A stretch of DNA of 64,000 nt from Fibrobacterota bacterium (GTDB lineage Bacteria; Fibrobacterota; Chitinivibrionia; Chitinivibrionales; FEN-1185). Shown in pieces: positions 58,909 to 64,000 of this stretch (position 1 is the stretch's first letter; each line of letters opens with the position of its first letter). Under the pieces are notes generated by a model that was given only the letters and a program-made list of their open reading frames with translations, searched no databases and was not told the origin of the DNA. Location: positions 1-64,000 of the forward strand of contig PLWQ01000006.1 of NCBI GenBank assembly GCA_003165595.1, given 5' to 3'. The translations under genes and the position numbers were made by a program.

Positions 58909-59313
58909 TCATGATTTCGGAAGGTCTTTTTCTATAAGAGTTCTCAACGTATTGACAAAAGAAATGGCGTCCTCAACCCATGGCCTTGCCTCGGCCTCGT
59001 TAAAGATGAAGAAGTCCTCGTAATCACCTTCCTGTCTGCGTTCAAAAAGGTCATTATATATTCGCGCCGACTCTATGGAAACAATCCCTGTCTTCACAAA
59101 ATGAAGATTAAAAAAAGATCGGATGCCAGCATGTTTTTTAGATTTCATTTGATGCAGAACAAGCAAAGCAGAAACCGCATAGAAACATGCATAGTAGAGC
59201 CTGTTTACGCACGCGTTCCAATGAGATGAATTCCCAAGAACCTGCGCTTCCGAGAGTGATTCAAGCGCTCTTGATACTCTGTATTTTACCAGGTCAAGAA
59301 TGCTCTCGCTCAT
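58909..59313 (-). CDS. hepT: HEPN-domain toxin (intact pair)
   Basis: 134 residues. Helical HEPN protein with the catalytic Rx4-6H motif in IRSFFNLHF (Arg65, His71). The upstream MNT gene overlaps by 4 bp, giving the HepT/MntA order. In this system the nucleotidyltransferase AMPylates and silences the HEPN ribonuclease. Confidence 0.88.
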   Translation of the reverse strand: MSESILDLVKYRVSRALESLSEAQVLGNSSHWNACVNRLYYACFYAVSALLVLHQMKSKKHAGIRSFFNLHFVKTGIVSIESARIYNDLFERRQEGDYEDFFIFNEAEARPWVEDAISFVNTLRTLIEKDLPKS

Positions 59314-59621
59314 ATTGTTATTCCTTCACGGTCAACATTTTCATGCAATGGAATGATACGGAATTTCGGACTTTGCCATTCCTGACGACTCTTAATAATA
59401 GAACTCAAAACTTCATTTGCTTCCAATTCAACATCGTAAATGGCATGTCGAACTCGGTCTGTCCGAACGGCATCAACCTCGCCGTCTACAAGAATCAGGA
59501 AATCCCAGTCGGAACCTTCGTGAAAATCCTCCCGCGCACGGGAACCATAGAGAATGATTTCGGCGGAAGGCTCGATTTGCCTTACGGCGGTTTTTACTTT
59601 GTCCAACAATAGGGATTTCAT
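59310..59621 (-). CDS. mntA: MNT-domain nucleotidyltransferase antitoxin (intact pair)
   Basis: 103 residues. The minimal nucleotidyltransferase motif GSRAREDFHEGSDWDFLIL provides G-S-x10-D-x-D. The ATGA overlap links it to the HEPN gene downstream. Confidence 0.9.
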   Translation of the reverse strand: MKSLLLDKVKTAVRQIEPSAEIILYGSRAREDFHEGSDWDFLILVDGEVDAVRTDRVRHAIYDVELEANEVLSSIIKSRQEWQSPKFRIIPLHENVDREGITI

Positions 59622-59958: not shown

Positions 59959-60222
59959 TTAAGCAGCAGAAGAGGAATGTGCCAAAGTGCTGCCAATTTC
60001 GTAAAGGAAATCAGGCGAAAAATCAGCTCCATTTTCCCATTCAATTGTGTCGGTATCGCGATTCAGTTTGACTTTACTAAATTCAGCCTTATTTCTCAAA
60101 TCCCTTAAGATTCCATTGTTCAAATGGTTCTCCAAGTCCGCCACCTTGACATTTCCATTTTCAAATTCAAGGAGTATTTCATAATCCTTTTTATATTCAG
60201 CGGCCTTAATCCAATGCATAAA
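59959..60222 (-). CDS. DUF2442-family protein
   Basis: 87 residues from ATG 60222: MHWIKAAEYKKDYEILLEF, NGNVKVADLENHL, and the end DTIEWENGADFSPDFLYEIG. The beta-rich DUF2442 fold is recognised from the ENG...VADL and the W-x-N-G-x-D-x-x-P-x-x-L-Y ending. Such proteins often accompany toxin-antitoxin genes. Its start lies inside the end of the truncated HEPN gene. Confidence 0.82.
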   Translation of the reverse strand, partial: FMHWIKAAEYKKDYEILLEFENGNVKVADLENHLNNGILRDLRNKAEFSKVKLNRDTDTIEWENGADFSPDFLYEIGSTLAHSSSAA

Positions 60223-60374
60223 ATGGCCGCCCGGGCGGCATGAAGAACCGCATAGTATGACCTGGAAATAGCGTCCTCCATCAATCCTGCCTGAAACAAT
60301 TTCTCGGACGCAGCAAGAGATTTTTCGCCGCGCTGGATCTCTTTGCATATTTCCTGTAAGTGGTCCGTCGTCAT
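60120..60374 (-). pseudogene. truncated HEPN protein (second pair)
   Basis: 84 residues, of which only about the first 58 (IQRGEKSLAASEKLFQAGLMEDAISRSYYAVLHAARAAILCIGLRP) look like a HEPN domain. After that the frame runs through the DUF2442 gene and stops. The catalytic Arg...His motif found at residues 65-71 in the intact copy is lost, so it should have no RNase activity. Its ATG overlaps the MNT stop by 4 bp. Confidence 0.8.
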
Positions 60375-60697
60375 ACTTGCACGGCATCCTTTTCGATATT
60401 GGATGCGAATTCAAATCCGTTTGTTTTGAGCATTGCAAAATGCTCTTTGGATATGACTTGAATAGACAAACGTGCTCCGATGCTCCAATCCATTTCATAC
60501 CCGAATGTCCGAATTTGGTCTGCTTTCCGCCAATCATCAAATTCCGTCACAACCAGAATGTCGATATCCGAATCGGGATTGTCATCTCCCCGTGCTTTCG
60601 AACCGTACATTAGGACCGTTACTATGTCACCGGGAAACAGCCTCTTGATTTTTTCACTGAATTGCCCGATGATCAGCTTTTCATTTCCAGTCAGCAT
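60371..60697 (-). CDS. MNT-domain nucleotidyltransferase (second pair)
   Basis: 108 residues from ATG 60697, with AAGGAG 9 nt upstream. GSKARGDDNPDSDIDILVV holds the G-S-x10-D-x-D motif. The active-site residues look intact although its HEPN partner is truncated. Confidence 0.88.
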   Translation of the reverse strand: MLTGNEKLIIGQFSEKIKRLFPGDIVTVLMYGSKARGDDNPDSDIDILVVTEFDDWRKADQIRTFGYEMDWSIGARLSIQVISKEHFAMLKTNGFEFASNIEKDAVQV

Positions 60698-60753
60698 AAA
60701 ACACATCTCCTTCGTAAACATAAATATACCATAAACAAGCCTTCGACAATAAG

Positions 60754-61050: not shown

Positions 61051-62142
61051 TTATGTTATTCCGCCATTGACCAGGCGGGCGTAATGACAGAGCATGAGTT
61101 CACCCGTCTTCTCATTACGCAAGTGCAATCCGTTGCCCAGGCACCACCGGTACGCCTTGCAAGAAACGCAGGGCCCGGTTTTTGTCCACGACCTGTTTCG
61201 CATGACACGGAACCTGCCGTTCCAAACTTCCCAGAAATCGTCTTTGTAAATATTCCCCTGGATATAATCGGCCCGAAGACTTGGACAGGCTGAAATCGAA
61301 CCGTCGACCAACACCGATCCCACCGAGACGCCCGCGGCGCATTGGAAATAGTTGTCGCGCGCCATTCCCTCGTAGCTTCCGAGAAAGCCTTCGCACCCGT
61401 AATTCGGCCGTACCTTCCCCAGTTTTTTCGTGCCGACGATAAAGTCCAAGAGATCCACAAACTGCCGGTCCGAAATCTGCAATTCCGCGTTTGCAGCCGC
61501 TCTTCCCTTCGGAAACACGGTGAGCAGCCGCCAGTTCTTTACGCCCCTGTCGTTGAGCAGGTCCTTGATTTTTGGGAGCTCGTCGAAATTCCGGCGGTCC
61601 ACGCACGTTGCGACATCAAAGATGATGTTGTCGGTGGCTGCCGCGAGTTCAACTGCGGTAACCGCGCGGTCGAACGACCCCGCTTTATTGCGAAGCCAAT
61701 CGTGCGACGCCCTCAGGCCGTCAAGACTGATGGTAAGGGAGCGCAACCCCGCGTCCAGGAGACGGCCGTACCTGTCCCGCGTCAGGGCATATCCGTTGGT
61801 GACGAATCCCCAGGGAAAACCGCGCTTGTACAGCTCGAGGCCGCATTGTTCAAGGTCATCGCGCAACAGCGGCTCGCCCCCCGTGAGGGCAATGGTCGTC
61901 TTATGAGGATCAACCCGTTCTTTTATGGAATCGATGACGCGCAAAAAATCCCGCAGCGGCATATCGGGAAGCGATGCGTCGCGCAGGCAGTCGCTGCCGC
62001 AATGGAGACACGAAAGATTGCACCGGAGTGTGCATTCCCAGAAAAGGTAGCGCAAATCGTGGACGGCCGCGTCGATGCCTTTTTTTATGCCGAACAGGTC
62101 GAGCGCAATGCGTTTACGCAGGGGTATTTTGAGGCCGTTCAT
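61051..62142 (-). CDS. radical SAM/SPASM-domain enzyme
   Basis: 363 residues from ATG 62142, which overlaps the stop of the surface-protein gene as ATGA. The [4Fe-4S] motif CNLSCLHC (Cys41, Cys45, Cys48) follows LRYLFWECTLR, a lead-in very like a family of Bacteroidales radical SAM/SPASM enzymes. GGEPLLRDD and SLDGLRASHDWLR are also typical. The C-terminal SPASM region has cysteines in GCEGF, CAAGVSVGSVLVDGSISACPSL and CVSCKAYRWCLGNG. Such enzymes modify peptides or proteins. The likely substrate is the adjacent surface protein or an unseen small peptide; inference. Confidence 0.92.
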   Translation of the reverse strand: MNGLKIPLRKRIALDLFGIKKGIDAAVHDLRYLFWECTLRCNLSCLHCGSDCLRDASLPDMPLRDFLRVIDSIKERVDPHKTTIALTGGEPLLRDDLEQCGLELYKRGFPWGFVTNGYALTRDRYGRLLDAGLRSLTISLDGLRASHDWLRNKAGSFDRAVTAVELAAATDNIIFDVATCVDRRNFDELPKIKDLLNDRGVKNWRLLTVFPKGRAAANAELQISDRQFVDLLDFIVGTKKLGKVRPNYGCEGFLGSYEGMARDNYFQCAAGVSVGSVLVDGSISACPSLRADYIQGNIYKDDFWEVWNGRFRVMRNRSWTKTGPCVSCKAYRWCLGNGLHLRNEKTGELMLCHYARLVNGGIT

Positions 62143-62960
62143 CGCTCGATTGAGATCCTGGTTATGGCCGCGTGCGTACCGGTCTGCAGCTTGAGGAAAT
62201 AAATCCCGGCCGAAAGCCCGGACGTTTCCAGGCGCGCCTCGTGCTCCCCGGCCGATTGGGACCCGTCGAAAATCTCCTTGATCAGCCTGCCGGTCGCGTC
62301 GTATAATGCCATGCGTGCCTGCGCCCCGGCCGGAAGCGCGTACCGCATTTCGATTGTTCCATTTGCGGAGCGCCATGCCCGCATCGACATGGCCGCCGGG
62401 GAAGCGCCGGGCCCGGCGGGGTTTACTGCCTGGGAGAGCTTCTGCAGATACAATTCGATAGTTACCGTGTCCGCCAAGCCGCCCATGGCGGGAATGAAAA
62501 TCAGAGTGTCTTTGTTTTGGAACGATCCGTTTTGCGCGCCATCGATATCCTGCGCTTCAAAAATCCAGGTGTTGAACACCGGCGATTGGAAGAACGTCAT
62601 GGAGAACGATCCGTCGGCCGCGGTCAAGGCGGAATCAACGACCTGCTTGGTCGTCGTGTCCTTCAGGAAGACTTTTACATTTTCGATTGCTGCATCGTCG
62701 GCCTGGGACCTGATTGTCCCTTTGACCGAGAACTGCGCGGAGGAAGGCCCGTACCAAACGATAATACCGTACAATGGAGCGATGCCATAGTCAGGAACGA
62801 CTATCGTTGAATCAGCTTTTGTAAGACCTTTGCTCGTCGTCTGTATAATCTGCCCGGAGGCATACACAAAAAACGTGAAAAGGAACGTCACTGCTGCACC
62901 GGCAAGCCTGAGCAGCATCATCGACATGCGGCCGGGAAGCCTGATGATTTTTTTTGCCAT
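62139..62960 (-). CDS. surface protein with carboxypeptidase-regulatory-like domain, linked to the radical SAM enzyme
   Basis: 273 residues from ATG 62960 (GGAGGG upstream). An N-terminal export signal or membrane anchor (LLRLAGAAVTFLFTFFVYASG) leads to SSAQFSVKGTIRSQADDAAIENVKVFLKD, a carboxypeptidase-regulatory/Ig-like domain of the kind found in radical-SAM-associated putative lipoproteins of Bacteroidetes. Then a C-terminal domain of secretion-tail or FlgD-Ig type (ARMALYDATGRLIKEIF, then GLSAGIYFLKLQTG). The cell-surface location is inference from these parts. Confidence 0.82.
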   Translation of the reverse strand: MAKKIIRLPGRMSMMLLRLAGAAVTFLFTFFVYASGQIIQTTSKGLTKADSTIVVPDYGIAPLYGIIVWYGPSSAQFSVKGTIRSQADDAAIENVKVFLKDTTTKQVVDSALTAADGSFSMTFFQSPVFNTWIFEAQDIDGAQNGSFQNKDTLIFIPAMGGLADTVTIELYLQKLSQAVNPAGPGASPAAMSMRAWRSANGTIEMRYALPAGAQARMALYDATGRLIKEIFDGSQSAGEHEARLETSGLSAGIYFLKLQTGTHAAITRISIER

Positions 62961-63168: not shown

Positions 63169-64000
63169 TCATCCCTCAACCACCGGACTCACGATCTTCC
63201 CCATAAACACCACTGTCCCGGTCGCATTGTCCTTGATGAGAAAGATAAAGGGCCTGTTGGCGGTGAACGGCACGGGCGGCGGGAACGCCAGCGACGACGT
63301 GCCGACCATGACCGCGGTGGCCGCGGCCGCCTCTGTTCCCCTTTCGTCAACAGAGACGAACGCCTTATGGATTGCGTCCTGGATAAACAGGTCTCGAAAC
63401 CCGTCGATGCCGGAAAAATCGGCGGTATCCGAAAACGCAACAGCCATGCCCAGGGCGGATAGCATGTTCTTGAGACTGATTGACGCGGTGCCGAACTTGA
63501 ATTTCGGAATGCCGACCCACACCGCCCTGCTCTGAAGCGCGCCTTCCAGCGCGGACAGGAAATCGGACGAAAGCGCGGATTCAACCGCAGCCATCTTTCC
63601 GGGATTCGGGAGGATAATCAGCATGGAAATCTCGCTCCCCTTGTACTGCATCTCAAGCGCGCTGCAGTCTGCGCCGGAATCGTACTTGCATGTTCCCTCC
63701 CGGTGCATGAAGACGGCGGCAACGGAATCGCTTTCCCCGTAGAACGCCTGGCTGTACGAATCCTCTTTGCGAAAGGTATCGGCCCACTGCGCGTTGAAAT
63801 ATATTGCATTTGTCAAAACCAGCACCGTTCCGGCCGTAATTGCTCCCTGCGGAATAAGGTCCTGTATTCTGGATTGCGTCCGGTCGCTCACCCAGGAGTT
63901 GATGGTGACCCGGGAGGCGTCGGGATTGTTGAGAAAATCCAGCAACCGCAAAGACGCGCCGTAGCTGACGCTCTCCGTCTTGAGGAAGTCCGGCAGAAAA
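63169..64000 (-). CDS. serpin, C-terminal part (N-terminus beyond window)
   Basis: About 276 residues are visible; the frame runs off the window end without a start. NSWVSDRTQSRIQDLIP, VLVLTNAIYFNAQW and the signature RPFIFLIKDNATGTVVFMGKIVSP are serpin hallmarks. The reactive-loop hinge reads GTEAAAATAVMV, small residues as in inhibitory serpins, so it probably traps a serine or cysteine protease. Secreted or periplasmic location cannot be checked because the N-terminus is missing. Confidence 0.93.
   Translation of the reverse strand, partial: FLPDFLKTESVSYGASLRLLDFLNNPDASRVTINSWVSDRTQSRIQDLIPQGAITAGTVLVLTNAIYFNAQWADTFRKEDSYSQAFYGESDSVAAVFMHREGTCKYDSGADCSALEMQYKGSEISMLIILPNPGKMAAVESALSSDFLSALEGALQSRAVWVGIPKFKFGTASISLKNMLSALGMAVAFSDTADFSGIDGFRDLFIQDAIHKAFVSVDERGTEAAAATAVMVGTSSLAFPPPVPFTANRPFIFLIKDNATGTVVFMGKIVSPVVEG

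Follow-up and report, generated by a model that had tools for sequence, protein, structure and literature searches.

The window analysed here, a 64,000-nucleotide stretch of a Fibrobacterota genome, encodes a radical SAM/SPASM enzyme and an adjoining exported partner, and we consider it likely that the two form a protein-modification unit in which the X-Tyr-Gly sites of the partner are spliced. The two proteins belong to TIGR04133 and TIGR04134, families whose models state no function, and no paper naming either one was found in the literature searched. The same X-Tyr-Gly motif was found in partners built on unrelated scaffolds beside TIGR04133 enzymes, and also beside enzymes of the PlpX family.

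The enzyme and its partner in the window

The features of the pair and of the gene upstream are as follows (all on the minus strand).

63169..64000: serpin gene, continuing beyond the window (PF00079, 354.9 bits); 208 bp upstream of the partner, same strand
62139..62960: partner protein, 273 aa, candidate substrate; TIGR04134 core and T9SS tail, zero cysteines
62850..62960: N-terminal signal-peptide region (aa 1–37), candidate leader; best-conserved section of the T9SS-tailed partners
62739..62795: X-Tyr-Gly block PDYGIAPLYGIIVWYGPSS (Y58, Y64, Y70), candidate modification sites, placed by codon coordinates
62499..62759: TIGR04134/CarboxypepD_reg-like beta-sandwich core (aa 68–154), from profile match, alignment and model
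62148..62336: T9SS type A sorting domain (aa 209–271), from TIGR04183 and Pfam PF18962
62139..62142: ATGA stop/start overlap, partner to enzyme, from the sequence
61051..62142: radical SAM/SPASM enzyme, 363 aa, from TIGR04133 and Pfam PF04055 and PF13186; putative splicease-type modifying enzyme
61999..62022: CX3CX2C radical SAM cluster motif (C41, C45, C48); the next residues are GS, a feature also of PlpX-type enzymes
61087..61341: SPASM-like auxiliary cluster region (C268-x12-G-x4-C286, C325-x2-C328-x5-C334, C352)

In the profile search, the enzyme passed the TIGR04133 cut-off of 425 bits with 538.9 bits. Its CX3CX2C motif was unchanged in an alignment of 22 relatives, and C250, slightly upstream of the SPASM-like region, was likewise invariant, while the final Cys of the canonical CX2CX5CX3C pattern is missing from the sequence. 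The AlphaFold model (pLDDT 85.9) resembled most closely the solved folds of BlsE, SuiB, SkfB, PqqE and anSME.

The partner matched TIGR04134 at 46.5 bits against a cut-off of 39.8 (aa 68–154), and its match to Pfam CarboxypepD_reg was sub-threshold (24.7 against 32.3). Both sorting-domain profiles exceeded their cut-offs in the C-terminal tail (TIGR04183, 32 bits against 23; PF18962, 31.6 against 27), and the T9SS translocon SprA/Sov is encoded in the same genome (contig C33, 515.6 bits combined). The pair thus shares with the TIGR04133/TIGR04134 system two adjacent, translationally coupled proteins above the curated cut-offs and a YG motif immediately before the beta-sandwich core. It differs from that system, whose TIGR04134 member is described as a putative lipoprotein, in that the partner ends in a T9SS sorting tail and is without a lipobox Cys. 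A preliminary description made from the sequence alone had noted the ATGA coupling, suggested these two families and pointed to a secretion-tail-like C-terminus, all of which our searches bore out; a lipoprotein reading of the partner had to be abandoned, because a protein without any cysteine is better read as a sorted surface protein.

Among 12 partners, mean pairwise identity was 0.51 in alignment columns 1–40, whereas the domain and the tail reached 0.30 and 0.32, respectively. As conservation peaks in these N-terminal columns, we propose the signal-peptide region as the leader, and the sequences suggest that in T9SS-tailed partners this region serves both functions. The structural model of the window partner was of low confidence (pLDDT 61.5) and placed a helix at residues 10–34, followed by a low-confidence linker (residues 36–70) that is predicted to be disordered. 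A sequence search of solved structures with the partner returned no match. A T9SS tail was present in 11 of the 12 T9SS-class partners of the window's order and a TIGR04134 match in the window partner alone, which indicates that the family model misses this class.

Three X-Tyr-Gly sites occur in the window partner, D57-Y58-G59 (DYG), L63-Y64-G65 (LYG) and W69-Y70-G71 (WYG), and the block containing them lies mostly inside the low-confidence linker. In the lipoprotein partners YG is invariant, and Y70-G71 aligned to it. Proline is not at its canonical place in these motifs, which read YGIAP, YGIIV and YGPSS. The other 11 T9SS-tailed partners from the window's order carry their YG block in a domain loop instead, so that the block moves and the motif stays. 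A short precursor peptide near the pair, for which the preliminary description had proposed a search, was rejected as a candidate: near the pair, the window held no open reading frame that combined YGxP and a signal peptide. Since the partner itself bears the candidate core motif, no separate short precursor is required.

X-Tyr-Gly motifs in the partners of related enzymes

We gathered the partners beside TIGR04133 enzymes irrespective of any motif and compared about a hundred relatives. In the first set, YG was present in 44 of 49 non-redundant partner calls and YGxP in 27 of 49; the 40 YGxP sites compared with a shuffle mean of 1.3 and a maximum of 6. As the motif had been noticed in this set, we put it to the test with a second sample, 28 Bacteroidales loci, of which a few are possibly close to loci of the first set. 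There, YG was found in 25 of 27 partners and YGxP in 23 of 27 (shuffle mean 0.5, maximum 4 in 2000). Overall, a YGxP open reading frame lay within 1.5 kb of the enzyme at 97 of 117 loci, and most of the remaining loci, including those of the window's own order, had YG without Pro at the YGxP position. Among 41 control loci, YGxP frames were confined to nine loci with PlpX-like enzymes and two others.

The partner scaffolds are mutually unrelated, comprising beta-sandwich (CarboxypepD-like) lipoproteins, Ser-rich lipoproteins, lipopeptides, T9SS-tailed proteins and a zinc-ribbon protein. A signal peptide, a cysteine and YGxP make up nearly the whole of the lipopeptides of 51–64 aa, and one lipoprotein contains three tandem KYGVITPP(K/S)-type repeats; tandem KYGVITPPKDSVA repeats count among the scaffolds. 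As far as the sequences go, X-Tyr-Gly, usually in the form YGxP, is the sole feature common to these otherwise unrelated partners. For several loci that at first looked like exceptions, a YG partner turned up at another place in the locus: a zinc-ribbon protein with YGPP downstream in one Fibrobacter clade (seen in L092–L096), a CYGMPP lipoprotein downstream (L115) or YG partners somewhat further upstream (L065 and L169). Beyond close relatives, the only gene families recurring across loci were the enzyme and the partner set, with no third family among the open reading frames of at least 100 aa that were compared, a size limit at which a PlpY-sized gene could be missed.

The refuting outcome named in the preliminary description, an enzyme in an unrelated SPASM clade with a partner not conserved beside it, did not occur; the partner is kept beside the enzyme in other genomes. 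The suggestion in that description that the enzyme may modify the partner has gained a specific candidate site, the X-Tyr-Gly motif.

In Alistipes and other Bacteroidales (L050, L057, L058 and L060), lipopeptide genes occur in tandem, some encoding just 51–64 aa, each with a signal peptide, Cys and YGxP. These minimal precursors are suited to a bench test. In a divergent TIGR04133-like clade from Fibrobacter (L092–L096), the overlapping downstream gene encodes a cytosolic zinc-ribbon protein with YGPP, a possible non-secreted substrate.

Comparison with PlpXY spliceases

We take TIGR04103 (nif11-class peptide maturase 3) to be the PlpX family, for which a review gives IPR026482; the distribution of spliceases was reportedly covered by Scott et al. 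in 2022. The PlpXY splicease cuts tyramine out at X-Tyr-Gly, with MYG and LYG as natural sites (PMC10533398, PMC11002830, PMC10373908), and engineered tags such as GPIRPLYGLPI have been derived from natural sites (PMC10533398, PMC11002830). Spliceotides have been described as protease inhibitors (PMC11117315, PMC10373908).

As in PlpXY, a radical SAM/SPASM enzyme adjoins an X-Tyr-Gly precursor in the window pair, and the alignment showed (H)CGS, G(Y/F)(Y/L)GxYE, CxAG and (D)GxIxxC...GNI to be common to TIGR04133 and the PlpX clade. On a Nostoc plasmid, a TIGR04103 enzyme (853 bits) adjoins a Nif11 precursor ending in GSIALYGLPPELF (ALYGLPP), and the flanking pattern of the window partner is like that of this precursor. 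TIGR04103 was the second-best family of the window enzyme, at 124.8 bits, far below its cut-off of 725. By analogy, we regard the enzyme as probably working like the PlpX splicease family and not as a member of it. TIGR04103 does not hold as the unique second-best match of the TIGR04133 family, several members of which scored equally or higher against AhbD, NirJ2 or TIGR04053. A tree separated TIGR04133, PlpX-like and outgroup enzymes with weak rooting. We rejected TIGR04133 as a proven sister of PlpX, as a three-group tree carries no rooting information and a larger tree joined long branches.

The pair also differs from PlpXY in several respects. No PlpY/RRE-like open reading frame was found next to it. 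The PlpX SPASM pattern is CX9-15GX4C...CX2CX5CX3C...C, whereas the window enzyme is without the Cys after CX2CX5C and has the additional C250, as well as an extra N-terminal helix. The leader is a Nif11 domain in PlpX precursors and, as the candidate here, a signal peptide, and the product in the window would be a surface protein.

Other enzymes in this neighbourhood adjoin X-Tyr-Gly proteins of their own. During the assembly of the outgroup we met Fibrobacter loci (L122–L130) in which TIGR04103-like enzymes lie directly beside proteins with 8–16 tandem KYGYPCGV-type repeats (e.g., AALKYGYPCGV). These repeat proteins look like a multi-site splicease substrate, and the N-terminal domain of one of them (L123) gave a sub-threshold match to chagasin (I42; 15.9 of 27.2 bits). 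The Fibrobacter loci share with the window their phylum, an X-Tyr-Gly-x-Pro motif and the juxtaposition of enzyme and candidate substrate; they differ in that their enzymes are nearer to PlpX and their substrates carry the 8–16 repeats, possibly on a chagasin-like N-terminus. The GDL motif system (TIGR03913/DUF1843) likewise has related enzymes, and its DUF1843 precursors often have LYG or PYG near the N-terminus (L135 and L136); its family may share the same chemistry. In contrast to the window partner, these precursors are short, cytosolic and helical, and the window enzyme scored 116.8 bits against TIGR03913, below its cut-off of 591.75.

Proposed mechanism and alternatives

We infer the following course of events. 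The TIGR04133 enzyme would meet its freshly synthesised partner in the cytoplasm, probably recognise the partner's conserved signal-peptide region, and modify the X-Tyr-Gly sites in the flexible linker (Y58, Y64 and Y70). A backbone piece, tyramine, may be excised there as by known spliceases, leaving a reactive ketoamide. The partner would then be exported by Sec and, via its C-terminal tail, be displayed on the cell surface by the T9SS; the ketoamide could serve there as an inhibitor of serine or cysteine proteases or as another electrophile. A surface-displayed ketoamide inhibitor is our preferred role for the window partner. More broadly, and more tentatively, TIGR04133 may represent a second large lineage of backbone spliceases that acts on full exported substrates with the signal peptide as leader; the Fibrobacterota T9SS would in that case display alpha-ketoamide proteins, probably protease inhibitors.

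Splicing is the best inference because the motif is identical to that of the spliceases and sequence features are common with the PlpX clade, and the YG motif is also compatible with other chemistry at Tyr. The motif statistics indicate a site and not a reaction. SPASM maturases carry out many reactions, the folds near to that of the window enzyme include SuiB (Lys-Trp crosslink), SkfB (thioether) and PqqE, and the auxiliary-cluster cysteines are unlike those of PlpX. The enzyme might thus alter the same Tyr-Gly sites by other radical chemistry, such as a three-residue cyclophane or a C–C, ether or thioether crosslink at Tyr. We consider this rather unlikely, given that the invariant Gly after Tyr and the flanks (ALYGLP, KYGYP, PLYG) agree with those of splicease substrates and of the proteins beside PlpX-family enzymes; thioethers are excluded in the window partner, which has zero Cys.

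Two further alternatives place the substrate outside the partner. Some loci encode several YG proteins, very short lipopeptides included, as would be expected if the enzyme modified another peptide or protein and the partner merely presented, carried or protected the product. That arrangement is very unlikely in our estimation, since the partner set is the only family recurring beside the enzyme, the common motif sits in the partner itself, and no other signal-peptide-bearing YGxP frame was found around the window pair. The similar scores of TIGR04133 members against AhbD, NirJ2 and TIGR04053 would also fit an enzyme whose product is a small molecule or cofactor (heme- or PQQ-like), with the partner motif conserved on other grounds, for example as a binding loop. 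However, AhbD-like and AhbC-like genes are found separately in the genome (contig C17), and a binding loop would be unexpected in five unrelated scaffolds or in tandem repeats; we regard a cofactor role as extremely improbable.

Distribution and significance

TIGR04133 was found above its cut-off in 89 of 168 Fibrobacterota genomes, 60 of 295 Bacteroidales genomes and 3 of 395 genomes sampled across Bacteroidota. It also occurs on a plasmid of Treponema saccharophilum with its own lipoprotein partner (SCYGMP), and such enzyme–partner pairs were found repeatedly, in three phyla. The preliminary description had seen in the window a possible extension of the system to a different phylum. Fibrobacterota, which also include Fibrobacter with loci of its own, do carry the system, but this is unsurprising, as it is commoner there than in the sampled Bacteroidales.

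A second, divergent pair is present in the window's genome on contig C28 (locus L002, 1064–2547), where the enzyme scored 324 bits, below the cut-off, and the lipoprotein reads ...AACYGTPYNYAFVG. In this lipoprotein the lipobox Cys is the X of Cys-Tyr-Gly (ACYGTP), as it also is at L110, L113, L115 and the Treponema locus (L132). Splicing of such partners would put the modification right beside the lipidated N-terminus and change the lipidated residue.

The enzyme and partner families were already known, and so, probably, is the chemistry. What is new is the substrate class, a T9SS-sorted surface protein, along with the proposal of a site and a reaction for two hypothetical families. The TIGR04133/TIGR04134 pair, to which no function is assigned, is carried by about half of the Fibrobacterota genomes and about a fifth of the sampled Bacteroidales, gut genera included. 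If the X-Tyr-Gly reading is true, a testable reaction and its site can be assigned to the family, together with a product class, namely backbone-edited surface proteins with reactive ketoamides. Splicease chemistry would then extend beyond short peptides to proteins that are secreted or displayed by the T9SS, and the family would offer new enzymes for site-specific protein labelling.

Neighbouring genes

The N-terminus encoded by the serpin gene upstream of the partner resembles a lipoprotein signal. A second genome (G023) also has serpins no more than a few kb from the pair. Serpins are frequent in this order, and a functional link between the serpin and the pair is only suggestive. On the other side of the pair, two successive HEPN/nucleotidyltransferase (MNT) gene pairs (58909–59621 and 60120–60721, minus strand; Pfam HEPN and NTP_transf_2) are possible toxin–antitoxin modules.
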